Shown here in pieces: positions 7,311 to 22,331 of a DNA stretch of 35,308 bases. The notes beneath the pieces were generated by a model. The model was not told where the DNA came from. It ran no database searches and saw nothing but the letters and a program-made list of their open reading frames with translations. This DNA comes from Gammaproteobacteria bacterium. Lineage in GTDB: Bacteria > Pseudomonadota > Gammaproteobacteria > Pseudomonadales > Halieaceae. The stretch is taken from the NCBI GenBank assembly GCA_030431585.1, contig JAUIIQ010000010.1, positions 1 to 35,308 of the forward strand. The letters are read 5' to 3'. Each line of letters opens with the position of its first letter. The first letter of the stretch is position 1. The position numbers were made by a program, and so were the translations under genes.

Positions 7311-7433
7311 ATTACGCTCCCCCTCAGGACGCCCATGCTTTAGCCTTTCGCGAGAGAGCATAGCACTGCCGGCGTCACAGCGCATGGCAGCGGTTACCTA
7401 CTGGCCCCTTGGAATAGCACCGATACAGACCGC

Positions 7434-10007
7434 GTGAAAACTTTGCAACAACATTACCTTGCGATCGACAGTTGCCTGGTCGTCATCAGCCGCGACAGCG
7501 GACTCGTACTGCAATGTTTCGGCGAACTGCCATTCACAGCGCCCGAGGGCGTGATCGGCAGGGACTGGCGTGACGCATTGGCGGTTCCCGGCGACAGCAC
7601 CGCGGTGATCGAGCGCGCGCTTGGCGCGGGCGTTGCCGCGTTCCTGCCGCCATTGATAGTCGGGGCCGGAGCGGATACGGATCACCTCATGGGGGGTATG
7701 TTGGTACCGCAGGAGTGGCAGGGGGAGCCCGCAGCCCTGTTAACCCTGCGCCGACTCGCCGTGCCCTGGGGCTTGCGTGCCGATGACCTGGTGGGCTATG
7801 AGGATATTGTCGCCGTGCTGGGTGTCGATCACCTCGAGTTCAGCCCTACCTGGGGCGTAGCTGAAACCGAAGGCCTGATGATGGAGCTGCGCTCGGGGCT
7901 GGAGCAGCTGTTGCGTGACAGCGACTGGCTGGGGTTGCCAGAGGGCGCAACCATTACCGTTATTCTGCGGGGGCTCGAGCCTGAGGCTGCACTGGATATC
8001 AGCAGGGCGCTTTTATCCCATCTGCACCAGGGGTTGGCGGGGTTGTCCGGCGGTGCTCAGTTTGCCAGGGCCTGCATCGGGCTGTCGCAGCGCCTGCGGG
8101 AGCAGGCTCCCATGACTGCGCTGGTAGCGGCCAACGCGGCCTTGTTGCAAGCACAGGCAGGTGGTGATGAACGCATCCGCTTTTCCAGCCCCTGGGACCC
8201 TCTGGGGCAGGCTGCTCGCGCCCTCAACGCCACGGGCGTATTCCGCGATACCGCTGTCGATGCCAGCGCCAGGCAGTTCCTTGCTGATCTGTTGATGCTG
8301 GGCTCCCGGGCACGGCGTCTGCAGGACTTCAGTGAAGGTACCCTGCAACTCGTACTGACCCAGCAGGGATTGTCGCTTGCCGCACTGTTGCAGTTCGATA
8401 GCAGCGGTAACCCGGATGTACTGGCTGCCGCCGCGGTTCGCGACGGTGCTGCGCAAAAGCAGGCGACAAGCCGCCTGCCACGAGGGCTGAAAACACTCAT
8501 GCGCTCTCTGCAGTTGGCGGACCTGGAGGGTCATCAGGTATTGCAACGTGGCGGCCTGGTGATCCTGCCACTGCGCAGCAGGGGTAGCGTGCAAGGATGC
8601 CTGGTGCTGGAGGATGCGCAGCCCGACCAATGCGGTTTCCGCCCCTGTGCCGGTGCTCTGCAACAAATAGGTGAAAGGGTTGCTGCCAGTCGCCTCAGTG
8701 GCGGCCAACTGGCGGAACAGGCTGCGGTGATGCCGCCGTCCAGGGAAATGGAGAAGGGTATTGAAGGATATGTGCTGGACAACATGGAAGGGGCTATCGA
8801 CCAGGCTATATTCCTCGCACAGGTAGACATGCCAGTAGCCATTGTGGGCGAGCGCGGCACCGGCAAGATGTACGTGGCGCAGGTGATTCATTCGGAAGCG
8901 GGCGGCAGTGCCAAAGATTTGGTCAAGCTGGATTGCCGTGGTTTTCGCAATCGCCGGGAGGCATGGGCGCAGATCAGCAGGGAGCTGCGGCGGGGCAGTG
9001 GCAGGACACTGGTGTTCAAGTCACCGCAATTGTTGCACCCGGAGATACAGGCCCGGCTGGCCCGGCAGTTGGCTTCGCGCACCGCTACAGAAGAAGGGGC
9101 GAGTCGCTACCTGGCTCCCAATCGCTACGTAGCGCTGTTGCCCGAGCCGCCGCAACGCCTGCTGCTGAAAGGACTGCTCGACGAGCGCCTGGCGAGCGTG
9201 TTTGCCGGCTACCCGATACTGGTGCCACCGTTGCGACAGCGGCCACGCGCGGTATTGCGCTGGGCGCATAAAATTCTGGAGCAGGAAAGCATGCAGTGCG
9301 ACCGCCGGGTACTGGGTTTTACTCCGGATGCTGAGCAGGCGCTGTTGCAACATAAGTGGCCCGGCAACATCAGTGAGATGCGCCAGATCATTCACGACGC
9401 CCTGGCGCGTACTGACAAAGACTGGGTGACGCCGGTAGACCTTGGCTTGTTTGTTGGTATTTCTGCGGATGGTCATTCTGCACCACGCAAAGAGCGTTCG
9501 TTCCTGGAGGCCGGGGATGATCAAACACCCGAAGAGTCTGAATACAATCCCTCCGGCGAAGAGGAGGTGCGCGTGGCCCTTGGGCAGGCACTGGCCGCAT
9601 CGCTGGAGACGGCAAGCCTGAGACCTTTGGGAACGTGGTTGGATGATGAAATCATTAATGCTGCTCTGGAGCGAAGTGGTGGTGACAGCAAGGGCGCTGC
9701 TGAGTTTCTGCAGGTGCGCACACGCAATGTCGGTCGCTGGATACCGAAGGTGCGTGAGCGTGAAGCGGAGCGTGAAGCGAGCCTGTTGTGGCAGCCGGTG
9801 CGTGAACGGGTGCAGCAGTGGGTTCTGGAAACTACCCCGTCCGAGACCCCGCTGCAGCAAATAGCGGAGCTGATGCTGATACGGCTGGTGCAACAACAGT
9901 GCAGCTCCCAGAGTGCTGCCGAGCGGGCAAAAATTATGGGGGTGTCCACGCCAACCTTCCAGAAGCGCCTGAAACAACTTTCACACACTGCCTCATCGGG
10001 AGCCTAG
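7434..10007 (+). CDS. Degenerate sigma-54-activator-like protein with two Fis-type HTH segments
   Basis: 857 residues from GTG 7434. The N-terminal 430 or so residues look like a sensory region of unclear class, possibly GAF-like at about 280-430. An AAA+-like domain follows (about 440-680) with a Walker A-like GERGTGK near 468-475. The Walker B position reads TLVFKSPQLL instead of the usual TLFLDEIGEL, losing both acidic residues. The GAFTGA loop that contacts sigma-54 is missing, since the protein runs from VKLDCRGF almost directly to the Walker B strand. Other landmarks remain (PPLRQRP, HKWPGNISEM). The C-terminus holds two Fis-like helix-turn-helix segments, around INAALERSGGDSKGAAEFLQ and SSQSAAERAKIMGVSTPTFQ. 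It probably binds DNA or partner proteins but cannot act as a standard bacterial enhancer-binding ATPase. The next gene begins 3 bases downstream. Confidence 0.75.
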   Translation: MKTLQQHYLAIDSCLVVISRDSGLVLQCFGELPFTAPEGVIGRDWRDALAVPGDSTAVIERALGAGVAAFLPPLIVGAGADTDHLMGGMLVPQEWQGEPAALLTLRRLAVPWGLRADDLVGYEDIVAVLGVDHLEFSPTWGVAETEGLMMELRSGLEQLLRDSDWLGLPEGATITVILRGLEPEAALDISRALLSHLHQGLAGLSGGAQFARACIGLSQRLREQAPMTALVAANAALLQAQAGGDERIRFSSPWDPLGQAARALNATGVFRDTAVDASARQFLADLLMLGSRARRLQDFSEGTLQLVLTQQGLSLAALLQFDSSGNPDVLAAAAVRDGAAQKQATSRLPRGLKTLMRSLQLADLEGHQVLQRGGLVILPLRSRGSVQGCLVLEDAQPDQCGFRPCAGALQQIGERVAASRLSGGQLAEQAAVMPPSREMEKGIEGYVLDNMEGAIDQAIFLAQVDMPVAIVGERGTGKMYVAQVIHSEAGGSAKDLVKLDCRGFRNRREAWAQISRELRRGSGRTLVFKSPQLLHPEIQARLARQLASRTATEEGASRYLAPNRYVALLPEPPQRLLLKGLLDERLASVFAGYPILVPPLRQRPRAVLRWAHKILEQESMQCDRRVLGFTPDAEQALLQHKWPGNISEMRQIIHDALARTDKDWVTPVDLGLFVGISADGHSAPRKERSFLEAGDDQTPEESEYNPSGEEEVRVALGQALAASLETASLRPLGTWLDDEIINAALERSGGDSKGAAEFLQVRTRNVGRWIPKVREREAEREASLLWQPVRERVQQWVLETTPSETPLQQIAELMLIRLVQQQCSSQSAAERAKIMGVSTPTFQKRLKQLSHTASSGA

Positions 10008-10010
10008 ACC

Positions 10011-10586
10011 ATGGCAGAGAGCCGCAATCGCAAGACCATCGAGGAATGTGCACAGGAATACGCGCAGCTTGCCCAGGAGCGGCTGCCGCCCAGTCTCGGC
10101 TTTTCCGCGCGGCTCAATATGCTGTGGGATCTCGCTGGCGTCGCTCCCTCGCAGTTCGAGGGGCGGGTGCTTGGCGTTTTGGCGATCAACAGCGCCTGGC
10201 GCGAGGCCGATATTCGCAAGTGGTTACAGAAAGACGTGCTGCCGGCACGCGATGACCTGCGCAACATGGTGCGCTTCCTGGTGGCACAGCTTGACGAGGG
10301 CCAGGACGTGGAGCGCTGGGAAGCCTTTCTGATCTATGGATCGCCGGTGGTGTCATCCCCGGTGAATCATGCCATGTACCGCAAGGACCAGGCCCGGCGT
10401 GAAATCGCCTCGCTGATCTTTGCCCAGGTCACTGAGGAATACAGTATTCCCCCCTCCACCTACGACGCCGACAAGGCCTTCCAGCGCTGCCTGGGCTTGA
10501 TGCACAAGTTCAACATTTATGAGACCCAGGACTTCCAGCCCGGCCACCTGGAGCCGTTCAGGAACTACATGTTTCCCAGCGAGTGA
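10011..10586 (+). CDS. Protein of unknown function, 191 residues, coupled to the activator-like gene
   Basis: I do not recognise this family. The protein is soluble, with no signal peptide or membrane segment, and looks mainly helical. Visible landmarks are an N-terminal acidic-basic segment (RKTIEECAQEYAQLAQE), a central W-rich part (WREADIRKWLQKDVLP) and a C-terminal half with SLIFAQVTEEYSIPPSTYDA. The ATG at 10011 lies 3 bases after the stop of the 857-residue gene, with a GGGAG ribosome site inside that gene's end, so the two are co-translated. A hairpin terminator 120 bases downstream ends the pair, keeping it separate from the chemosensory operon. A role as partner of the activator-like protein is inference from coupling only. 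Confidence 0.75.
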   Translation: MAESRNRKTIEECAQEYAQLAQERLPPSLGFSARLNMLWDLAGVAPSQFEGRVLGVLAINSAWREADIRKWLQKDVLPARDDLRNMVRFLVAQLDEGQDVERWEAFLIYGSPVVSSPVNHAMYRKDQARREIASLIFAQVTEEYSIPPSTYDADKAFQRCLGLMHKFNIYETQDFQPGHLEPFRNYMFPSE

Positions 10587-10703
10587 ATGCCCCGGTTCAG
10601 CGCCTTGGGTTGGGTTTTCTTTGTCCAGCCTGGCGTGTTTTTCCCTCCCATTGGCCCATTTTCAGCGCGAAACGTGCGCCAGGTTCACAAATGCCTGTGG
10701 TTT

Positions 10704-10724
10704 CTGGAGAAAACTCCAGTTTTT
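10704..10724 (+). terminator. Rho-independent terminator after the 191-residue gene
   Basis: A perfect six-base-pair stem CTGGAG/CTCCAG (10704-10709 and 10714-10719) with an AAAA loop is followed at once by TTTTT (10720-10724). It lies 118 bases after the preceding stop and before the chemosensory operon, so it should separate the two transcription units. Confidence 0.75.
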
Positions 10725-10773
10725 AGTTGCCGCCTGCGGCCTGTCCTCGAAATACTGTGCCCGTATTACCCCA

Positions 10774-10813: not shown

Positions 10814-11224
10814 ATGAGCGAACAACTCGAAGAGATGGACATCAGCGGCGTAAAGATTGCGATCGTTGACGATGCCAAGACCATCAGGATGATGATGTCC
10901 CATACCCTGAAGGGAATGGGTTGCGAGGTTGAATGTGCCGAAGACGGCTACAAGGCGCTGGGCATGCTGCGTCGCTTCAAGCCGGACCTGATCTTCCTTG
11001 ACATCACCATGCCGGAGCTGGACGGATACCAGACCTGCACCTTGATCCGCAATGCCGAAGATACCCGCGATACGCCGGTGGTGATGCTGTCCTCCTCGGA
11101 CGGCATCTTTGACATCGCTAAAGGGCAGGCCCGCGGCGCCACTGCCCACGTGACGAAAATTCCGCCTGAGAGCGTGTTGCGTCAGTTGATCTTCAATCAC
11201 ACCAAGCAGCGTCGGGCTGCCTGA
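10814..11224 (+). CDS. pilG: Single-domain response regulator, PilG-like
   Basis: 136 residues forming one receiver domain with no output domain. The acidic pair D19/D20 (AIVDDAKT), the phospho-acceptor D63 (FLDITMPELDGYQTC), the S93/S94 switch position (VMLSSSDG) and K115 are present. LDGYQTC…LIRN and MLSS-DGIFD-AKG closely resemble PilG of type IV pilus systems, where phospho-PilG, fed by the ChpA kinase, promotes pilus extension and cAMP synthesis. The lysine is followed by I-P (TKIPPES) rather than the near-universal K-P, so the beta5-alpha5 surface may be altered. The ATG at 10814 has GAGGG five bases upstream. It is the first gene of the operon and is followed four bases later by pilI. 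No pilH follows it, unlike in Pseudomonas. Confidence 0.88.
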   Translation: MSEQLEEMDISGVKIAIVDDAKTIRMMMSHTLKGMGCEVECAEDGYKALGMLRRFKPDLIFLDITMPELDGYQTCTLIRNAEDTRDTPVVMLSSSDGIFDIAKGQARGATAHVTKIPPESVLRQLIFNHTKQRRAA

Positions 11225-13886: not shown

Positions 13887-13948
13887 GAGCAAGGGATAGC
13901 GCGGGTCCATGCCCCGCCCCTGTGCATACTAGAACCGGAGGTTTAGTA

Positions 13949-16360
13949 GTGGCCAGTAAAACTGACATCGTCGCCCTGAAATGGGTGGTTGGCCTGATGA
14001 ACAAGCAGGCAGAGAACGCCGAGGCGTCGCTGGTAGAGTACAGCAACGACACCAGCCAGAAGCGGCCTCTGTTGCAGTGCATGTGGGCAGTGCATCAGAT
14101 CACCTCGACTCTGCGGGCCCTGGGTATGCGCAAGGGTGAGATGCTGACGCTGGAAATGGAGCGCAGCCTCAATTACCTGTACAAGGACAAAGTGGTGGGA
14201 GAGCGGCGCAAGCTGACCATGGGCGGACTGATGCAGGCGCTGAAGGTGTTGCCTGCCTACCTGGCCCACGCCCAGAATGCCCGCGCGGACACAGGACAGG
14301 GACTGGAACAGCATGTCAACGACCTGCGTCGCTGGATAGGGGAGCGGCCGCGCCCCAGAGCCTTCTTCTTCCACATGACTATTCCCGAAGGCTGCGGTAT
14401 TACCGCTGGCGCTGCGCCAGCAGACGACGAGGAAGTGCGCAACCGTGCCAACGTGATGTTGGCGCTGTACCTGGAAATGGCCAAAATGGGCCTGCGCCGC
14501 AAGAACATGGTTGAGAGCATGAAAACGGTCGCGCGTATTTCGCGGCGCATGCAGACGCTGTTCAGTGGCACAGCACCAGAGCGCTTCTGGTTCACCATGG
14601 TGGGTATATGTGAAGGCATGGCCGGTGGTTTGATTGTGCCGGACGAGTGTATTGCACAGATATTCAAATCCGGTGCGTTCATGATCAAGTATGCGCGCGA
14701 GAATGGTGCGCGTATCGATGATTCGGTGGACTATGATGCGCTGCAACAGCAGATGCTGTTCTACATAGCCAGCTGTAAAGCCAAGCCTCTACACATTTCG
14801 CGGATTCGCGACGTATTCTCTATTGATGAGGGTACGCTGGAGCAGGCCAACCGGGGCCTCATTCACGTGGATGCGCTGGTGACAGCGCTGAGCTCCGCGC
14901 TTGACCAGCTCAATGGTGTGGTTGACTTCCTCAACTCGCAGGACCTGGCCGAGGCTGCCAGAGCGGGAGACGCGCAGTTGGCTACACGCGCGCTCGACGG
15001 CATTGACGCCACGCGTTATCGCCTGGAGGCAGCAGGGCAAATGGCCCATGCCGACTCGCTGCAGTCTGTGTCAGAGCGTCTGGATAAGCTTTACCGCGGC
15101 GTTTACAACGAGTCACCCACGCAGCTTAATCAGATGATCAATGAGATCATTCGTGGCATCGTCGATGTGAAACTGGATATAGAGCACAAGCTGGAGCATG
15201 GCCTGTGCAGTTCCTTCTCCAGTCGTGAATTTGAGCTGCGTGAGAGCGTGGTCAACGCCACCTTCAACCATATGGGGCTGGTTGAAAACTACATGCACCA
15301 GATCCTGCGTCGCAAGGAGCTGGCCAGTGCACTTGCGCGTAAACCCAATGACACCGCCAGCACATTGCGACTCACTATTGCGCTCAATCGTTACCTGAAC
15401 AAGACAGACCAGGGGCATGAGGAACTGCGCCAGGCGGTACGTGAGGCCGATGCAGGGAATCCCGACCTGGATCACCTGTTTGATCTTGCCCGGGTATTTC
15501 TCAACGACCAGGAAACCATCGCCGACCGCAAGGCGATAGACATGTCCCTGGAGCTTCTCTCCGAGATATCCGGGGCTCTGGGTTTTGCCGGTATGGAACG
15601 CGAGGCACGCATTATTGAGCGCTGCCAGCACTGGCTGAGCGCCGCCAGCAAGGCCGGTGCGGTGCGTGAGAATGATGCATTCCGCTGCTTTGCCGAGGCA
15701 TTTGCCCAGCTTGAACTGCATCTGCAGCGTTCAGTTATCGACCCGCTGGATGATACCTCACACATGCTGGCCATCGCCGAACAGCGAGCCGCTGAGCTTG
15801 ACGAGCATGCGGTTGACCTGTCACCCGGCGCAGAGGTTTCCCAGGGTAACTGGTCGCAGCCGAAAAATTATGTGGAGGATGCGGAAGTACCCGCCGAATT
15901 CCGCGAGGTGTTTTTCGAAGAGTCGGAAGAAATTGTCGAGGAAATCACCCGCCTGACCCCGGTTTGGCTGGAGAACCTTGAAAACCAGCAGGCGCTGCGT
16001 GACATTCGTCGCCACTTCCATACCTTCAAGGGTAATGGCCGGGCCGTAGGTGCCAACGTGCTGGGGGAGCTGGGGTGGGCTGTTCAGGACATGCTGGACC
16101 GCGTGCTGGATGGTGACCTGGAGCCCTCTGCTGAGTTGCAGTCCCTGTTGCAGGACATCGTACGCGAGTTGCCGGCGCTGGTGGGTTCCTACAGCGAGGC
16201 CAGTCACTGGGATGCCGGCCCCGTGCGCGAACTGACCGACCGGGCGTTTCGCATGGCTGAGGGCGCGGGCGACGATCTCGCAGAGGGTATGCCCGAAGTG
16301 GATGATCAGGTACACGGTGGTGCGTCAGGCGCACCTGTCTCCGAGAACCTGGGTCAGTAA
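13949..16360 (+). CDS. Hpt protein resembling the N-terminal half of ChpA (FimL-like)
   Basis: 803 residues from GTG 13949. I chose this start because a perfect GGAGG lies at 13937-13941, seven bases upstream; another GTG at 13922 has no such site. The N-terminus holds a degenerate Hpt-like helical segment (AVHQITSTLRALGM, H49). The large helical middle resembles FimL or the ChpA N-terminus. A clear Hpt domain near the C-terminus has HTFKGNGRAVG with phospho-acceptor H691. It lacks kinase, CheW and receiver domains, so it must be phosphorylated by, or act with, the CheA hybrid encoded next. In Pseudomonas these Hpt and Hpt-like domains are part of one giant ChpA; here the module is a separate gene ending 32 bases before the kinase gene, in another reading frame. 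Confidence 0.85.
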   Translation: MASKTDIVALKWVVGLMNKQAENAEASLVEYSNDTSQKRPLLQCMWAVHQITSTLRALGMRKGEMLTLEMERSLNYLYKDKVVGERRKLTMGGLMQALKVLPAYLAHAQNARADTGQGLEQHVNDLRRWIGERPRPRAFFFHMTIPEGCGITAGAAPADDEEVRNRANVMLALYLEMAKMGLRRKNMVESMKTVARISRRMQTLFSGTAPERFWFTMVGICEGMAGGLIVPDECIAQIFKSGAFMIKYARENGARIDDSVDYDALQQQMLFYIASCKAKPLHISRIRDVFSIDEGTLEQANRGLIHVDALVTALSSALDQLNGVVDFLNSQDLAEAARAGDAQLATRALDGIDATRYRLEAAGQMAHADSLQSVSERLDKLYRGVYNESPTQLNQMINEIIRGIVDVKLDIEHKLEHGLCSSFSSREFELRESVVNATFNHMGLVENYMHQILRRKELASALARKPNDTASTLRLTIALNRYLNKTDQGHEELRQAVREADAGNPDLDHLFDLARVFLNDQETIADRKAIDMSLELLSEISGALGFAGMEREARIIERCQHWLSAASKAGAVRENDAFRCFAEAFAQLELHLQRSVIDPLDDTSHMLAIAEQRAAELDEHAVDLSPGAEVSQGNWSQPKNYVEDAEVPAEFREVFFEESEEIVEEITRLTPVWLENLENQQALRDIRRHFHTFKGNGRAVGANVLGELGWAVQDMLDRVLDGDLEPSAELQSLLQDIVRELPALVGSYSEASHWDAGPVRELTDRAFRMAEGAGDDLAEGMPEVDDQVHGGASGAPVSENLGQ

Positions 16361-16392
16361 CTGACCCTGACAATAAAAAGTGGAGAGATACC

Positions 16393-19300
16393 GTGCATTC
16401 TGACAAAGACAGTTCCGCAACAAAACAGGATTCGCTTGAGGGTTCCAAAGAGAGCACCCTGGAGTGGTTAATGGAAATGGATCGCGATGAACCGGAGGAA
16501 AACCTGTTCATTGTTGATGGCAAAGTTACCGAACTTACCCTGAGTGCCTACGAGGCTGAAGTGGCTGCGCGTCCCATGACGCGTGGTCGAACGGATGCCG
16601 ATGACCTCGACACCTATATTTCCGAAGAAATTGTCCTGTCCGAGAACGACAGCGGCAACCTCTACAATGGCAGTAACGACATTGCCGCCGAAGAAAAGGC
16701 CTTTGAGGGCCTTATGGCAATCGATTTCTCCCGCCAGGAGGTTGAGGAGAGCGGCGCGGAAGTCGCGGCGGTGGATGACGGCAGCGATATTCTGGGTCTT
16801 GCTGAAGAGGATGATATTGGCGACTCCTACCTGGTAGTCAAGCGCGTACCCAGGGAAACCCCCGTGGTTGTTCCGGGCAAAGATGGCGCTGCTGCCAGCG
16901 AGTCTCCAGTCGAGCAGGTGGAGCCTGTCGCGCCGGAGATTTCAGTGGAAGCCGATATTCCGGAAGCAGACGCGCCGGAGGAGATTGTTATTGCCGCGGT
17001 GGCGGAGTCGGCTGAAGCTGCGCTCAGCTTCGAGGCTGAAGCGGATGCTGCCGAGCCCGAGCTCGAAACGCTGGCGTCGGCAGCGGCCGCGCTCAGGACG
17101 AGCAAGCCCGCAGAGATACAGGATGACTCCGCTGATGAGCCGCCGCTGCAGGACGACATTGCTGCGTTTGACGAATTCGTGGTTGCCGCAGAAGACGAGC
17201 TGTCACTGGAAGAGCTGCCGGTAATCGATGAACCGCCGGTAATGGATGTGGCGGCCTATGTCAGCAGTGTGGCGACACCGGAGAGCGATGAAGAATTTGA
17301 TCAGTATCTGGTGGCCGGGAGCGATCTCAGCGCTGGAGATGACGATCTTGACGAACTTTGTCTGCCGGAAGATGAATTGCAGTTCTCTGTTGATACAGAG
17401 ATCGACGCCGACCTGGAGCTGCATGAAGACTTTGTCGCAATGGAGGGCTTTGACGATGACCTCATGGCGGTCATCACGCCTCGCGTCGCTCCCCTTATGG
17501 AAGAGGTTGCCGCTGCTATAGGTGCTCGCCTGGTAGCGCTTGGCCGGCCGGGTAATGCGGTTGTTGCTGACGTGTCCATCGCCACCGATGCACAGACTCG
17601 CAGCGTTGCAAGCGAACAGGGATACGAGCCTGTCACATCGATTTGCACCCAGATACCGGACGCGCTGGAAGGTCTCCAGCCTCAGCAACTGGACGCGGTG
17701 ATGTTGCGCCTGGGTGATGTGGAGACGGGTGAGGCCTGCAATCGACTGTTCCAGCACGAACCTGAGTCTGACGGAACTGCAGCGGCTCCAGTGTTGACGG
17801 TGGTTGCCTCCAGTGTCTTCGATGACGATATCTTCGGCGAGGAGCTCGAAGGTGCGTTGCCGCCGGAAGACTGGGCGCCGGAGAGGGAAGAAATTGATGC
17901 GATCTTTGATGACTTTGGTGGTGATGATCTCGTCGATGGGGCCTTTGAACTGGAGTTCGATGAGCCGTTGACAGAGGCAGACGAACTGCCTGCTGTGGCT
18001 TCGATCACGGTCACCGAAGCGGAGGCGGAACCTGAGTCCGCCGAGCAGGCGAACGCGTCAGCGACTAGCGATGATGACGCCGACGAGCATCTTGTCCTGA
18101 GTGACGAAACCGTACTGCCGCAACAGGATCAGCCAGTGGTTCCGGATTTCTCCGACGATGGTCTGCTGGTGGAAGCGCAGGAGCCTGAAGAAATACTGCA
18201 GGTGTTTGAAGAGGACCTGTTCGAGGCCGATCTGGCCGAGGAGGAGCTGCAGGCCGCTTCCTCGGAAGACATCGATCAGCTGCTTCGCGATCTGGGCGCA
18301 GAAACGGAGTTACCCGGCGAAATCTGTGGCGTTGAAGTGGAGGCGTTTGCCGATAACACCTCGGCGAATGAAGACATTGAGCCTGACAACGAGACCGCCG
18401 ACGAACCTGCCCAGGCCGCAGCCGAGGTCGTTGCGGAAACTGACCCGGAAGACATGTCCTGGTGTATTCCCCAGAACATCAGCTTCCACCACAGCAGCCC
18501 CAGCAGCGGAGAGATATTCGCCGAATTCCTCGACGCCTTTATCGAAGAGGGCTCATCCGAGCTGGAGAAACTTGAAGATGCAGTAAGTGCCTGGGAGGCG
18601 AATATCGCCGATGAGCAGAGCCTGACCCAGGTAACGCGGATTCTGCACACTATAAAAGGCATCGCCAAAGGTGTGGGCCTGCATTTTTATGGCACTCTGG
18701 TGCATAACTTCGAGACCTTGCTGGAGCGTTTGCCGCGTCCGGCTGCCGGTGCCGAACACGACTATTTCCGTATTATCAACGCCTGGCTGGATGCTGCTGT
18801 TCGTGGCATGGACTTTGTCCAGGATCAGCGTCGCGATATTCTCAGCGAGTTTCCAGTGCGTGCTGGCGGGGCCGCTACTGCCGCTGTCGATGCTGTGGAG
18901 GAAACTCCGGAAGCACCTGCACAGCAGGAAGCGCAGCCGATGCCAGTGCAAGCCACTGCAGCGCCAGTCACCGCGCAGGAGACTGAGAAAGACCAGCGTC
19001 GTCGGCAGGAAGACAAACGTCTTGCTGACGAGGGTGCCAAGGCGCTGGCAGCGCAGCAGTCGGTGCGCATCACGTCGGAAAAACTCGACCTGCTGCTCAA
19101 CCTCAGTAACCAGGCGCAGCAACTGGGCGTGCGCACGGCGCAAAGCACCAATCGCAACAAGCGAGCGTCTGCCGAATTGATGGGGCGCCTTTCCTCGGTG
19201 CGCGCGCATATCGCTGACATCGCTGACCGGACGCTGTTCAACGTTAACGCCAGGGGGGCGGGCCGCTCCAGTGACCTCGATGCGCTGGAAATGGATCAGT

Positions 19301-20865
19301 ATTCCGAACTGCAGGAAGCCGCCAACATTCTGCGCGAGGGCGTTGAGGACCTGGCGGACCTGATCGAGGTGGCCACTCGCCACAACGCCCAGGCTGAAGC
19401 GTTGCTGAAGCAGCAGGCCTCGGTTATTTCTTCTATCGGTTCCACCATTCGCGCAGCCCGCGTGGTGCCCGCCTCACGGTTGATGCCGGGACTGCGCCGC
19501 CTGGTGCGCACGGTGAGTAACGACCTTGGCAAGGATGTCGCGTTCCGTGTGGCGAATGAGGTTGGCACGCTGGACCGCGACGACTATGCGCGCTGCCAGA
19601 CCATACTGGAGCACATGGTGCGCAACGCGCTGGACCATGGCATAGAGACCTCTGGGGAGCGCAAGGCGGCCGGCAAGCCCAGTGTGGGCCAGATTACGGT
19701 CGACGTGCGCATGTCCGGTGGTGACTCCGTGATTGTCCTGTCTGACGATGGCCGTGGTATTGACCCGGACGCCATGCGTGAATCGGCTATCAGCAAGGGA
19801 CTGGATGTGGATGCCTACGCGCTGTCTGATGACGAGGCGCGTAATCTCATTTTCCACAAGGGCTTCTCCACGGCGCAGACGCTGAGCCAGATCTCCGGAC
19901 GCGGTGTGGGTATGGATATCGTGCTCAGCGAATTACAACAGATGGGTGGCGACATACGCATCGAGTCTGAGCTCGGCAAAGGCACGTCTTTCCATATTCG
20001 CGTCCCTGCCAATGTGACCGTCAATGGCGCGTTGCTGGTAACTGCCGGCGATAATTCCTACGCGATTCCCCTGGGTGGCCTGATCTGCGTAGACGAAGTG
20101 CCCGTTGATCAGTTTTTTGCTGCGGTGGACGAGGGGGAGATGCTGCAAGTCTCGGGTATGGAATGTGAACCCGCCTACCTTGGCACCTTGTGCCAGAGTT
20201 GTAATCTGCCCGATCGCTCTTCCTGGCGTCACTCCGTCCCGGTCATTGTTGCCGGTTCTGATGCGCGCCGTATGGCCATTGCGATAGATGATGTAGAGGA
20301 GGCTCTGGAGCTTGTTATTCGCTCATTGGGCGCTCAGTTTGCATCCGTGCCGGGTGTGGCGGGCGCTGCCACCACAGCTGACGGGGAAGCCGTCGTGGCG
20401 CTTGACCTCAATGTGCTGGTGAGTTGCTTTGCCGAAGGGCAGGGTACTGCGGTAGCCGTAGATCAGCCTGAGGAAGAAAAATTCCTGGCTCTGGTGGTGG
20501 ATGATTCGCGAACGCAGCGCATGGTGGCGACCAGTCAGCTGGAAACGGTAGGTATCGAAACGGCTACGGCAGAGAACGGTGCGGTGGCGATAGACTGGCT
20601 CAACACCACCGAGCACCTGCCCGACGTCATCCTGCTGGATGTGGAAATGCCGGTGAAAGATGGTATTCAGACTCTGCGCGAAATTCGCAAGTCTGCTCGC
20701 TACAGCCATATCCCGGTCATCATGGTCACCTCTCGAACTGGCATCAAACACCGCACCATGGCGGAAGAGGCGGGCTGCAATGGCTATATGGGCAAGCCGT
20801 TTAACTTCCGCATGCTGATAGGGCAGATTAATGAACTGACCGGACAGCGTCTGGAGTTGGGGTAG
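16393..20865 (+). CDS. chpA: Hybrid CheA-type kinase with receiver domain (ChpA C-terminal half)
   Basis: 1490 residues from GTG 16393, with GGAGAG five bases upstream. Residues 1 to about 690 are a long acidic, alanine-rich, probably disordered region. An Hpt domain follows with phospho-acceptor H752 (LHTIKGIAKGVG), then a proline- and glutamine-rich linker and a dimerisation region (about 890-1050). The CheA ATPase follows: N box H1074 (HMVRNALDHGIE), G1 DDGRGID and G2 GRGVGMDIV. A CheW-like regulatory domain (about 1200-1345) and a C-terminal receiver with D1416 (LLDVEMPVKDG) and GKPF complete the protein. All catalytic motifs are intact. It should be the core kinase of the array, passing phosphate to PilG, its own receiver and perhaps the separate Hpt protein. 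Only one Hpt domain is in this protein, against several in Pseudomonas ChpA. Confidence 0.92.
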   Translation: MHSDKDSSATKQDSLEGSKESTLEWLMEMDRDEPEENLFIVDGKVTELTLSAYEAEVAARPMTRGRTDADDLDTYISEEIVLSENDSGNLYNGSNDIAAEEKAFEGLMAIDFSRQEVEESGAEVAAVDDGSDILGLAEEDDIGDSYLVVKRVPRETPVVVPGKDGAAASESPVEQVEPVAPEISVEADIPEADAPEEIVIAAVAESAEAALSFEAEADAAEPELETLASAAAALRTSKPAEIQDDSADEPPLQDDIAAFDEFVVAAEDELSLEELPVIDEPPVMDVAAYVSSVATPESDEEFDQYLVAGSDLSAGDDDLDELCLPEDELQFSVDTEIDADLELHEDFVAMEGFDDDLMAVITPRVAPLMEEVAAAIGARLVALGRPGNAVVADVSIATDAQTRSVASEQGYEPVTSICTQIPDALEGLQPQQLDAVMLRLGDVETGEACNRLFQHEPESDGTAAAPVLTVVASSVFDDDIFGEELEGALPPEDWAPEREEIDAIFDDFGGDDLVDGAFELEFDEPLTEADELPAVASITVTEAEAEPESAEQANASATSDDDADEHLVLSDETVLPQQDQPVVPDFSDDGLLVEAQEPEEILQVFEEDLFEADLAEEELQAASSEDIDQLLRDLGAETELPGEICGVEVEAFADNTSANEDIEPDNETADEPAQAAAEVVAETDPEDMSWCIPQNISFHHSSPSSGEIFAEFLDAFIEEGSSELEKLEDAVSAWEANIADEQSLTQVTRILHTIKGIAKGVGLHFYGTLVHNFETLLERLPRPAAGAEHDYFRIINAWLDAAVRGMDFVQDQRRDILSEFPVRAGGAATAAVDAVEETPEAPAQQEAQPMPVQATAAPVTAQETEKDQRRRQEDKRLADEGAKALAAQQSVRITSEKLDLLLNLSNQAQQLGVRTAQSTNRNKRASAELMGRLSSVRAHIADIADRTLFNVNARGAGRSSDLDALEMDQYSELQEAANILREGVEDLADLIEVATRHNAQAEALLKQQASVISSIGSTIRAARVVPASRLMPGLRRLVRTVSNDLGKDVAFRVANEVGTLDRDDYARCQTILEHMVRNALDHGIETSGERKAAGKPSVGQITVDVRMSGGDSVIVLSDDGRGIDPDAMRESAISKGLDVDAYALSDDEARNLIFHKGFSTAQTLSQISGRGVGMDIVLSELQQMGGDIRIESELGKGTSFHIRVPANVTVNGALLVTAGDNSYAIPLGGLICVDEVPVDQFFAAVDEGEMLQVSGMECEPAYLGTLCQSCNLPDRSSWRHSVPVIVAGSDARRMAIAIDDVEEALELVIRSLGAQFASVPGVAGAATTADGEAVVALDLNVLVSCFAEGQGTAVAVDQPEEEKFLALVVDDSRTQRMVATSQLETVGIETATAENGAVAIDWLNTTEHLPDVILLDVEMPVKDGIQTLREIRKSARYSHIPVIMVTSRTGIKHRTMAEEAGCNGYMGKPFNFRMLIGQINELTGQRLELG

Positions 20866-20874
20866 GGGGTTGCG

Positions 20875-21318
20875 ATGACTGAACGTATCTGTGTGCTCCT
20901 GACCTGCTCCGCCCAGCGGCGCTGGGCTATTCCGCAGAGTTGCCTGGGTGAAATCCTGACGCTGCCAGCCGAGGGCGACAGTGTGCCAGCCGAGGTTAAC
21001 TGGCGGGGTGTGGACATCCCGGTAATGGATTTTGGCACGGATGGGGAGCTTCCCTGGCTGGATCCGCAGAGTGGTACAGGGCTGATTGCCGTGATCCTGG
21101 GCGTGAAAGGGCCGGGTTATGACTACTGGGGCGTAGCCCTGCGTGGGCGGGGCCTGGCCATGCGTGACCTGCAGGAGAGTGACTGTGAGGACAGGCCCGA
21201 CGCGGTGCAGGAACACTCCCTGGCAGCATTTGAACTGGAGGGCCATACCTACCAGGTGCCGGACCTTCCTGCCCTGCAGTGCCTGGCGCTCGAAACCCAA
21301 TCCGCAGCGTCAGCCTGA
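20875..21318 (+). CDS. chpC: CheW-like protein, ChpC-like
   Basis: 147 residues with a compact CheW-type fold: RWAIPQSCLGEILTLP near the start, WRGVDIPVMDFG in the middle and LIAVILGVKGPGYDYWGVAL after it. It starts 10 bases after the kinase stop, with a G-rich ribosome site (AGGGGGTT). Its place right after ChpA matches ChpC, the second CheW-type coupler of the Pil-Chp system, thought to link additional receptors to ChpA. The Pseudomonas order would place a ChpB methylesterase between them; it is absent here. Identity as CheW-like is fairly clear; assignment as ChpC is mainly positional. Confidence 0.78.
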   Translation: MTERICVLLTCSAQRRWAIPQSCLGEILTLPAEGDSVPAEVNWRGVDIPVMDFGTDGELPWLDPQSGTGLIAVILGVKGPGYDYWGVALRGRGLAMRDLQESDCEDRPDAVQEHSLAAFELEGHTYQVPDLPALQCLALETQSAASA

Positions 21319-21350
21319 ACTGCGTTGCAAACTCCTGAGGAGAAACCTGC

Positions 21351-21746
21351 TTGAGACTGGATAAACTGGTAGATCAGATCGATACTGCTTTCGGCGAAAC
21401 GCCGCCCTTCACCTCTGAAGGTCTGGCGGACAACGACCGTGATGTGTTGCTGCGTGTATTCGGTGATGAAGGCTACCAGCTTTATCTGCAGGACCAGGTC
21501 AATCGGCAGATTATTCGTGACTACCTTACCAATGCAGTGGTCCTTGGATTCATACCCGAGCCGGACCGGGCTCAGCTGGAAGCGATGGTGGGAGATCAGG
21601 AGACCAGGGCTTCGCTGTCCCTGCACATGCTTATGAGTTCCGTGGAGCAGGCGGCAGAATTACTTGCTAACGGCGTGCCTGCACGCCTTAAATTGCTGGA
21701 AGCGGACCCTGATTCGCCGCCTCATATCCATTTGATTCGCAGTTGA
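21351..21746 (+). CDS. Unknown protein, last gene of the chemosensory operon
   Basis: 131 residues from TTG 21351, chosen because GAGGAG lies eight bases upstream; it follows chpC by 32 bases. I do not recognise the family. It is a soluble, acidic, mainly helical protein with no membrane segment: LDKLVDQIDTAFGETPPF at the start, then DVLLRVFGDEGYQLYLQDQV and a C-terminal helical half (SLHMLMSSVEQAAELLANG). It has no receiver, CheW or methyltransferase motif. Its place in the operon suggests an accessory role in chemosensory signalling or pilus control, but this is inference. An AT-rich intergenic region with a new promoter follows. Confidence 0.7.
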   Translation: MRLDKLVDQIDTAFGETPPFTSEGLADNDRDVLLRVFGDEGYQLYLQDQVNRQIIRDYLTNAVVLGFIPEPDRAQLEAMVGDQETRASLSLHMLMSSVEQAAELLANGVPARLKLLEADPDSPPHIHLIRS

Positions 21747-21810
21747 TAATAAAAATCCTGGCATCCTTGCCCGCTTTTATCCCGTTTTTGTGTGAAGTTA
21801 TTGCAAAAAA

Positions 21811-21859
21811 TGGCCAAAAATTGCCAATTATCCATATTTAGTTAAAATTATGGCCAAAA
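21811..21859. repeat. Paired TGGCCAAAA direct repeats flanking a promoter
   Basis: TGGCCAAAA occurs at 21811-21819 and again at 21851-21859, 40 bases apart, about four helical turns. The copies bracket the -35 and -10 elements of the candidate promoter at 21821-21848, and each contains the palindrome TGGCCA. Such spacing could let a dimeric regulator bind both sides of the promoter. Low sequence complexity in this AT-rich stretch is the main alternative. Confidence 0.35.
21821..21848 (+). promoter_or_regulatory. Candidate sigma-70 promoter for the 111-residue gene
   Basis: TTGCCA (21821-21826, 5 of 6) and TAAAAT (21843-21848, 5 of 6) are separated by 16 bases in a markedly AT-rich stretch (about 21760-21870), unlike its GC-rich surroundings. 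Transcription would start near 21855, giving a leader of about 140 bases before ATG 21996. Confidence 0.5.
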
Positions 21860-21995
21860 GGCTATTGTCGCTTCCCTGATCTCCCCTTATAACTGATAGC
21901 ACACAAGGCAGGAGCCGATGTGTAGTGAGCGCAGGCACACAGCCAGGGGACGCTCGCTGTCGAGGGAATGGAATAAAAAAGTCAGGGAGTTAGTC

Positions 21996-22331
21996 ATGTT
22001 GACGATTACACCTACAGCAGTATTGGACCAGAGCCCGGGTGGCGAACTGGAAGTGTTTGCCGTGATCGAAGGGAAGAAAGTCTACCTTCCGCTTGATGCG
22101 AACTACATCATGCAGGACCGTCGGGGGCTGTGGTATTACAGCTCGCGCAAGCCGCGCCCCAAAGAGGGTGATTGGACACCGAATAAGACCAGCATTTCCT
22201 GCAAGAGCGAAGGCGGGTATGTGCGCGCTCTGAAAACCGACACCGTGCAGCCCTGGCTGGATACCTGCCAGCGTACAGTGCGAATGGTTACTGGCGCTTC
22301 AGCGGCTGACCGCAGACCCGCTGACGCCTGA
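21996..22331 (+). CDS. Unknown protein of 111 residues
   Basis: Start chosen at ATG 21996, which has AGGGAG six bases upstream; an in-frame ATG at 21918 would add a basic, low-quality extension. The protein begins MLTITPTAVLDQSPGGELEV and has a beta-rich middle (VYLPLDANYIMQDRRGLWYY) followed by a basic, proline-containing loop (SRKPRPKEGDWTPNKTS). Two cysteines (in SISCKSEG and LDTCQRTV) are present; no signal peptide or membrane segment is visible. I do not recognise the family. It has its own candidate promoter and a leader of about 140 bases, and converges with the next gene, whose stop is only six bases away. Confidence 0.6.
   Translation: MLTITPTAVLDQSPGGELEVFAVIEGKKVYLPLDANYIMQDRRGLWYYSSRKPRPKEGDWTPNKTSISCKSEGGYVRALKTDTVQPWLDTCQRTVRMVTGASAADRRPADA

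Follow-up and report, generated by a model that had tools for sequence, protein, structure and literature searches.

A sigma-54-activator-like protein that lacks the residues for ATP hydrolysis has probably been turned, together with a small XRE-like partner, into a dedicated sigma-70 regulator in a bacterium of the family Halieaceae. The protein, which we call ACT, is encoded in a 35,308-nucleotide stretch of contig JAUIIQ010000010.1 (assembly GCA_030431585.1), referred to here as the window. ACT resembles the bacterial enhancer-binding proteins (bEBPs), and its closest named relatives belong to Pseudohalioglobus (Halieaceae) species, at 74 to 75% protein identity. We argue for its conversion to a DNA-binding regulator because it carries helix-turn-helix (HTH)-type units, is under purifying selection, is linked to the XRE-like protein (O191), and comes with a conserved operator at a sigma-70-like promoter. 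A sequence-only reading of this DNA had suggested that ACT became either a DNA-binding or a scaffold regulator; these four lines of evidence support the former indirectly, and the latter is neither supported nor excluded. Below, L numbers denote fetched loci or stretches and G numbers denote genomes, G000 being the genome of the window (87% complete).

Loss of the ATPase machinery in a maintained protein family

The ACT gene and its parts are as follows (intact cousins are relatives that keep the activator motifs and are described further below).

7434 to 10007, forward strand: ACT, bEBP-like regulator without hydrolysis residues, 857 residues, GTG start; domain order PAS-like, GGDEF-like, GAF-like, AAA+, HTH1, HTH2
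7434 to 7769, forward strand: PAS-like domain, residues about 1 to 112; from model secondary structure and a profile match with N-terminal parts of intact cousins; no Pfam PAS match
7791 to 8198, forward strand: degenerate GGDEF-like domain, residues about 120 to 255; sub-threshold Pfam GGDEF match and profile match with cousins
8262 to 8699, forward strand: GAF-like domain, residues about 277 to 422, the fastest evolving part; from the model and a profile match with cousins; no Pfam GAF match
8766 to 9449, forward strand: pseudo-AAA+ domain and lid, residues 445 to 672; fold match
8847 to 8867, forward strand: Walker A, GERGTGK, residues 472 to 478, kept
9006 to 9026, forward strand: Walker B strand, TLVFKSP, residues 525 to 531, with Asp replaced by Lys529 and Glu by Ser530
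9555 to 9788, forward strand: HTH1, residues about 708 to 785; sub-threshold HTH_8 match, model, and alignment with cousins
9789 to 10004, forward strand: HTH2, residues about 786 to 857; model and alignment with cousins

With the whole protein as query, Pfam returned AAA_lid_14 (E = 2e-10), Sigma54_activ_2 (3e-7), and a truncated Sigma54_activat (4e-7), with GGDEF (0.0056) and HTH_8 (0.0022) both below threshold. The AlphaFold2 model, built on a 23-row alignment, has a mean predicted local distance difference test (pLDDT) score of 82.9 and a predicted template modelling (pTM) score of 0.49, and its placement of domains relative to one another is unreliable. Its AAA+ part has the bEBP-clade fold with the lid, and its best structural match is with sigma-54 activators (NtrC1, 1ny6; Z = 23.1 and 2.4 Å over 226 residues); VpsR (7v2b) aligns with the same part at Z = 21.9.

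The hydrolysis motifs were compared across 52 ACT loci, 51 of which gave readable rows. The omitted locus, L133 (G062), is a 41-residue frame with a contig end and an in-frame TAG; together with L094 (G084), where ACT is split over two frames, it makes two interrupted frames among the 52. Of 52 rows, 51 keep the Walker A Lys; the other is L094, read across its interrupted frame. At the Walker B Asp position, Lys is found in all 51 readable rows, so the change is more than chance, and the Glu position holds Ser in 46 rows, Tyr in four, and Cys in one. The sensor I Asn (Pro570 in ACT) is replaced by Pro in 50 rows and Cys in one, the sensor II Arg (Ser647 in ACT) by Ser in 48 and Thr in three, and no row has Arg at arginine-finger positions 583 and 589. 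None of the 52 ACT frames (two of them partial) contains GAFTGA or GAYTGA, and the L1 stretch is missing in alignment with the intact cousins.

The roles of the Walker, sensor, and arginine-finger positions are established for the bEBP family. Roles of some of the AAA+ motif positions are also given in passages of PMC10723142. The sequence-only reading had held that ACT retains Walker A, has its Walker B acids replaced, and lacks the GAFTGA loop, and that it could not remodel sigma-54 polymerase by the known mechanism. These observations hold across the readable family members. With the losses at sensor I, the arginine fingers, and sensor II now added, the sequences strongly support the view that a classical sigma-54-remodelling ATPase function would be impossible for ACT.

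These losses have not been followed by decay. Across four genus pairs, the AAA part is 72 to 87% identical and the AAA-domain ratio of nonsynonymous to synonymous substitution rates (dN/dS) is 0.029 to 0.14, with synonymous sites near saturation; the low ratio argues against decay of this part. Judged from its sequences, ACT is a maintained family and not a decaying gene. On conservation and purifying selection, we reject the reading that it is a pseudogene.

The C-terminal part is modelled as two HTH-type units, with helices at residues 732 to 747, 752 to 759, and 763 to 775 and at residues 807 to 822, 828 to 835, and 839 to 856. It aligns with the C termini of the HTH_8-positive cousins L085 and L087, though ACT's own HTH_8 match lies below the cut-off. 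The earlier reading of two C-terminal Fis-like HTHs fits this model, the Fis type being putative.

At the start of the gene, the hexamer TATACT is found 6 to 7 nucleotides upstream of the ACT GTG or ATG in eight of nine genus loci (L031 to L037 and L040), where the window has the variant GATACA (7418 to 7436). TATACT would fit as the −10 element of a leaderless mRNA.

An XRE-like neighbour found in the same genomes

ACT had been placed directly upstream of a chemosensory operon; a further gene lies between them.

10011 to 10586, forward strand: O191, XRE-like protein, 191 residues, between ACT and the chemosensory operon

O191 has no Pfam or NCBIfam match. In its model (pLDDT 80.5, pTM 0.54), residues 26 to 123 resemble CI/XRE-type proteins, namely EspR (Z = 6.9), TP901-1 CI (6.0), and P22 C2 (5.7); a row for MPnS stands among these repressor matches at Z = 6.2, and Z values of this size may reflect no more than a common arrangement. 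The C-terminal half is without a clear match. The stretch ADIRKWLQKD..P....L fits what we take to be the XRE pattern.

Strong matches to ACT (E ≤ 7.5e-142) and to O191 (E ≤ 2e-90) pick out one identical set of 52 among the 140 family genomes, that of the window included. The homologue search recovered the same losses in 51 readable relatives along with the same neighbour. Divergent forms of O191 occur in two further genomes (G064 and G065), 368 genomes of the class gave one weak, partial match (G427), and a search of the taxonomic order with O191 matched eight of 293 genomes, all within Halieaceae. Mean column identity is 72% for O191, 46% for ACT, and 60% for the AAA-HTH core of ACT.

A conserved operator at a sigma-70-like promoter

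Between O191 and the first gene of the operon, which encodes a CheY, we identified a predicted operator and promoter.

10701 to 10723, forward strand: predicted operator TTTCTGGAGAAAACTCCAGTTTT, 23 bp, between O191 and CheY
10704 to 10719, forward strand: inverted repeat CTGGAG-N4-CTCCAG, inside the operator
10727 to 10732, forward strand: predicted sigma-70 −35 element TTGCCG, 7 bp past the inverted repeat
10751 to 10756, forward strand: predicted −10 element AATACT, after an 18-bp spacer

Transcription would start near 10763, with the repeat centred near −51.5, a position that would suit an activator contacting RNA polymerase. Both O191 and CheY lie on the fetched piece in 48 of the 52 loci. 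There, the inverted repeat is matched at 10 or more of its 12 positions in 32 loci, at nine in three, and at eight or fewer in 13; 1.8% of Markov-sampled control regions reach 10. The spacing is constant: in all 35 measurable loci with at least nine matching positions, exactly 7 bp separate the end of the repeat from a TTG −35 element, and a spacer of 16 to 18 bp then leads to AATACT (a 36th locus, L122, whose fragment lacks CheY, stands outside this count). In L041, O191 and CheY lie 3.8 kb apart with other DNA in between, yet the site, with this spacing, lies 95 bp before CheY.

The genome of the window contains one operator site within three mismatches, and the control none. Scanning the 140 family genomes, we found sites in 40, comprising 38 of the 52 genomes with ACT and two of the 88 without it (Fisher's exact test, P = 4e-20, the genomes being related); the reversed pattern gave one hit in the same 140. 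Both ACT-less genomes with a site, G022 and G078, carry the Hpt gene of the chemosensory operon; G078 has its site on the Hpt contig and G022 on a different one. The operator is close to exclusive to genomes that carry both ACT and O191. Near the intact cousins we found no convincing operator, the best match (11 of 12, in L085) lying inside a kinase gene.

In seven loci without the CTGGAG repeat (L050 and L127 to L132), a CTTGCAG element stands upstream of CheY with an AT-rich stretch before it. This element is perhaps a replaced operator.

Sites in front of DUF4124 and HD-GYP genes

Fourteen site-bearing stretches from the family scan were fetched. Seven of the sites precede a DUF4124-type gene, assigned by a Pfam match above the cut-off in L136, L137, L141, L142, and L147, by one just below it in L146, and by resemblance of the translation in L140. 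Two precede a DUF3391/HD-GYP gene (L138 and L139, from G146 and G147 of one genus), one lies on the G078 Hpt contig (L149), with the same promoter pattern, and four have no recurrent neighbour (L143, L144, L145, and L148).

A related motif also stands 63 to 68 nucleotides upstream of the DUF4124 start in all eight genus genomes, matching 18 to 22 of 24 positions, a level reached by none of 4000 sampled controls. Five of these eight sites (G000, G002, G005, G006, and G007) were not found near that gene by the family scan. In the genome of the window, the DUF4124-type gene (contig C242, 6213 to 6515; L152) has an 18 of 24 match about 65 nucleotides upstream, with the repeat poorly kept. These DUF4124 proteins are about 100 residues long. 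TfpC, a DUF4124 protein, is required for type IV pilus maintenance in Neisseria gonorrhoeae, and a DUF4124 domain alone does not mean TfpC orthology, according to the passages of PMC7593972 considered here. We therefore treat a pilus role of the DUF4124 gene as a lead only.

Intact cousins and the likely ancestry of ACT

Five relatives keep the activator motifs: GAFTGA is present in L085 and L087 and GAYTGA in L086, L090, and L101, and all retain the Walker B acids Asp-Glu and, as the alignment shows, both HTHs. L101 (G227) belongs to another family of the same class. The Pfam architecture of L085 and L087 is REC, PAS, GGDEF, AAA+, and HTH_8; L086 and L090 have GGDEF and GAF before AAA+ and no Pfam REC match. 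L085 is one gene away from a Reg_prop histidine kinase. A single comparison of the N-terminal regions of ACT and four intact cousins aligned 377 columns (E = 1.5e-15). The intact cousins show where ACT likely came from.

L088 (G065), a relative that has degenerated further than ACT, keeps REC, is without the Walker B acids and GAFTGA, and reads GTGR at Walker A. A divergent O191 stands directly beside it, and a Reg_prop histidine kinase is close by. Among the 52 loci, ACT frames measured from stop to stop fall into three length classes (15 of at least 850 codons, 17 of 700 to 849, and 19 of 380 to 500) plus a fragment, and the middle class, judged from L045, is without the GAF-like part. REC may have been lost first, after which some lineages would have shed more N-terminal domains, the dead AAA domain and the HTHs being retained.

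Outside the family, 368 class genomes besides our own gave no ACT-profile match above 100 bits (the window scores 678.5; up to four candidates were scored per genome), and the intact cousin L101 is among the matches below that level. More degenerate bEBP copies in the genome of the window were considered and rejected: its three weak Sigma54_activat matches fall in proteins that we take from their sequences to be ClpB-like, ClpA-like, and MoxR-like.

The chemosensory operon

The genes downstream of the operator are the following.

10814 to 11224, forward strand: PilG-like CheY, 136 residues, PF00072
11228 to 11794, forward strand: CheW-like protein, PF01584
11745 to 13886, forward strand: methyl-accepting chemotaxis protein (MCP), PF00015; no PilJ Pfam match
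13922 to 16360, forward strand: Hpt protein, 812 residues, which in other genomes also matches long ChpA-like frames at their start
16393 to 20865, forward strand: ChpA/CheA-like histidine kinase with Hpt, CheW, and REC, 1490 residues

The order from ACT and O191 through the PilG-like CheY, CheW, MCP, and Hpt protein to the ChpA-like kinase is kept across 21 distinct mapped genomes, several of whose mapped pieces stop short of the last genes. The exceptions are G002 and G003, where CheY is followed by the Hpt gene with no CheW or MCP in between, and some inserts. CheY shares 46 to 47% identity with response regulators from Pseudomonas plasmids, of which one among 15 listed carries the annotation PilG, and the best matches of the kinase in the plasmid collection are from Acinetobacter baumannii (37% identity over 35% of the length).

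The genes of the Pil-Chp type IV pilus chemosensory operon are pilG-pilI-pilJ-chpA. As there, PilG-, CheW-, MCP-, and ChpA-type genes stand together in the window. Unlike that operon, the one described here has ACT, O191, and the operator in front, its MCP has no PilJ match, and its Hpt part and kinase are two genes; the ChpA-like protein is thus split in the window (13922 to 20865). In addition to this Hpt gene, G002, G003, and G014 each show another Hpt-type match, in frames of 1807 to 1995 codons that are probably one-piece ChpA.

Beyond the operon, three small open reading frames (20875 to 22331), none with a Pfam match at E ≤ 0.001, precede a HAMP-GGDEF-EAL gene.

A proposed two-protein regulator and its alternatives

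We propose that the ancestor was a response-regulator-type sigma-54 activator with the order REC-PAS-GGDEF-AAA+-HTH-HTH, as in L085 and L087. In Halieaceae, the ATPase machinery, the sigma-54 loop, and REC would have been lost, and ACT would then have become fixed beside the XRE-like protein. ACT, O191, or both would bind TTTCTGGAGAAAWCTCCAGTTTT, whose centre is near −51.5, and make contact with RNA polymerase, with activation as the presumed effect on the promoter. The target switched in this way would be the PilG/CheW/MCP/ChpA-like operon, joined in some branches of the family by the DUF4124 and HD-GYP genes. The kept Walker A and the Walker B Lys suggest that nucleotide may be bound and not hydrolysed, serving as an assembly or sensing switch, and the N-terminal parts may sense something in those lineages that keep them. 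A bolder form of this proposal, which we put forward tentatively as the less probable one, makes ACT a nucleotide-locked pseudo-ATPase, perhaps with the Lys in the magnesium site, and the switch subunit of a sigma-70 activator made of two proteins, the other being from a new XRE-type family; its private operator would couple pilus chemosensing, the DUF4124 protein, and the breakdown of cyclic di-GMP.

Several observations weigh against a dedicated ACT-O191 regulator. As to the proteins, the fold match of O191 is middling and missed by Foldseek alone (no match at E ≤ 0.001), HTH1 falls under the Pfam cut-off and HTH2 has no Pfam match, and HTH2 is conserved less than the AAA part, at 44 to 63% identity in the genus pairs. 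As to the operator, the genomes are related and the counts are not independent. Fourteen of the 52 ACT genomes have no site within three mismatches (one of them, G014, reaches 11 of 12 by a looser count at L033), and in five of the 38 that do (G016, G028, G062, G080, and G083) the sites were found away from the operon. Ten of the 13 loci with eight or fewer matching positions (L049, L050, L053, L094, and L127 to L132) belong to three genera (g11, g17, and g27) that keep both proteins. Four of the eight DUF4124 promoters (L150, L151, L152, and L155) have weaker sites, matching the strict repeat at no more than nine of 12 positions. Finally, the operator could be read by ACT, O191, or both.

Two narrower versions of the proposal differ on this last point. 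The first, to which we give somewhat less than an even chance, credits O191 alone, through its XRE-like HTH, with recognition of the operator, and ACT with a role as a sensor or co-regulator that acts on O191 by protein contact. O191 is the better conserved of the two, also when set against the AAA-HTH core. Furthermore, the sole HTH-core column with disjoint residues between operator-plus and operator-minus loci is residue 74 of O191, beside the predicted recognition helix: the 32 loci with the operator have Lys or Arg there, the 10 without it Gln or His. The disjoint columns in the HTH part of ACT lie outside the helices (730 and 804) or at the end of the last one (855). These separating columns are a weak hint, suggestive only, that O191 may be the reader. 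However, the operator-minus loci may be one lineage, in which case a single event could explain residue 74, and the HTH of O191 is itself based on that middling fold match.

The second version, which we regard as unlikely, has ACT alone reading the operator as a VpsR-like sigma-70 activator gated by nucleotide binding, with another role for O191. Some GAFTGA-less bEBPs do act at sigma-70 promoters, and ACT has kept two HTH-type units; against this, every genome with a strong ACT match also has O191, which has an HTH-like fold of its own.

Very unlikely is a role outside sigma-70 regulation, in which ACT would join an intact bEBP in mixed rings as a dominant-negative or regulatory subunit at sigma-54 promoters. 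The genome of the window does have rpoN and 11 bEBP frames (Sigma54_activat at least 173 bits), but none of the 11 exceeds 560 codons and no intact cousin of about 1000 residues was seen in this 87%-complete genome; the sigma-54-contacting and arginine-finger residues are gone from ACT, and the linked promoter looks sigma-70. Least probable of all is that ACT is decaying, or is a scaffold without a regulatory role, since the three frame-length classes and the two interrupted frames (G084 and G062) that favour this are set against purifying selection, invariant residues, and strict co-occurrence with O191.

Comparison with known regulators and significance

The dedicated regulator that we propose has partial precedents. 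According to the passages of PMC10274813 considered here, VpsR of Vibrio cholerae and NtrC of Rhodobacter capsulatus are GAFTGA-less bEBPs at sigma-70 promoters. Like ACT, they combine the bEBP AAA+ fold with the absence of GAFTGA and a link to a sigma-70-like promoter. ACT differs in its Walker B Lys, its lost sensors and arginine fingers, its lack of REC, its two HTH-type units, and its constant XRE-like neighbour, a distinction drawn from descriptions of the two proteins. FleQ of Pseudomonas aeruginosa, a motility-related bEBP, is likewise linked to sigma-70 promoters in passages of PMC10723142 and shares the bEBP AAA+ domain; in contrast to ACT, it has GAFTGA, hydrolyses ATP, and functions together with FleN. 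For O191, the alignment of residues 26 to 123 with EspR, P22 C2, and TP901-1 CI is a middling likeness of fold, whereas a sequence family match to such repressors is absent.

Among the literature matches listed (titles and the starts of abstracts), the ACT-O191 pair, the operator, and the operon in this group are undescribed. Nor did those matches include a family-wide Walker B charge reversal with loss of sensors and fingers, an XRE-like neighbour, and an operator. GAFTGA-less sigma-70 bEBPs are already known, and what is new, among the matches listed, is the combination of losses, neighbour, and operator.

The path from a motor-driven sigma-54 activator to what is probably a non-hydrolysing regulator can be traced here through intact cousins in the same family. 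The defined neighbour and DNA site make a role of the bEBP AAA+ domain without hydrolysis directly testable. In these bacteria, ACT and O191 may thus govern a small regulon consisting of a pilus-type chemosensory operon, a DUF4124 gene, and, in some genomes, an HD-GYP gene.

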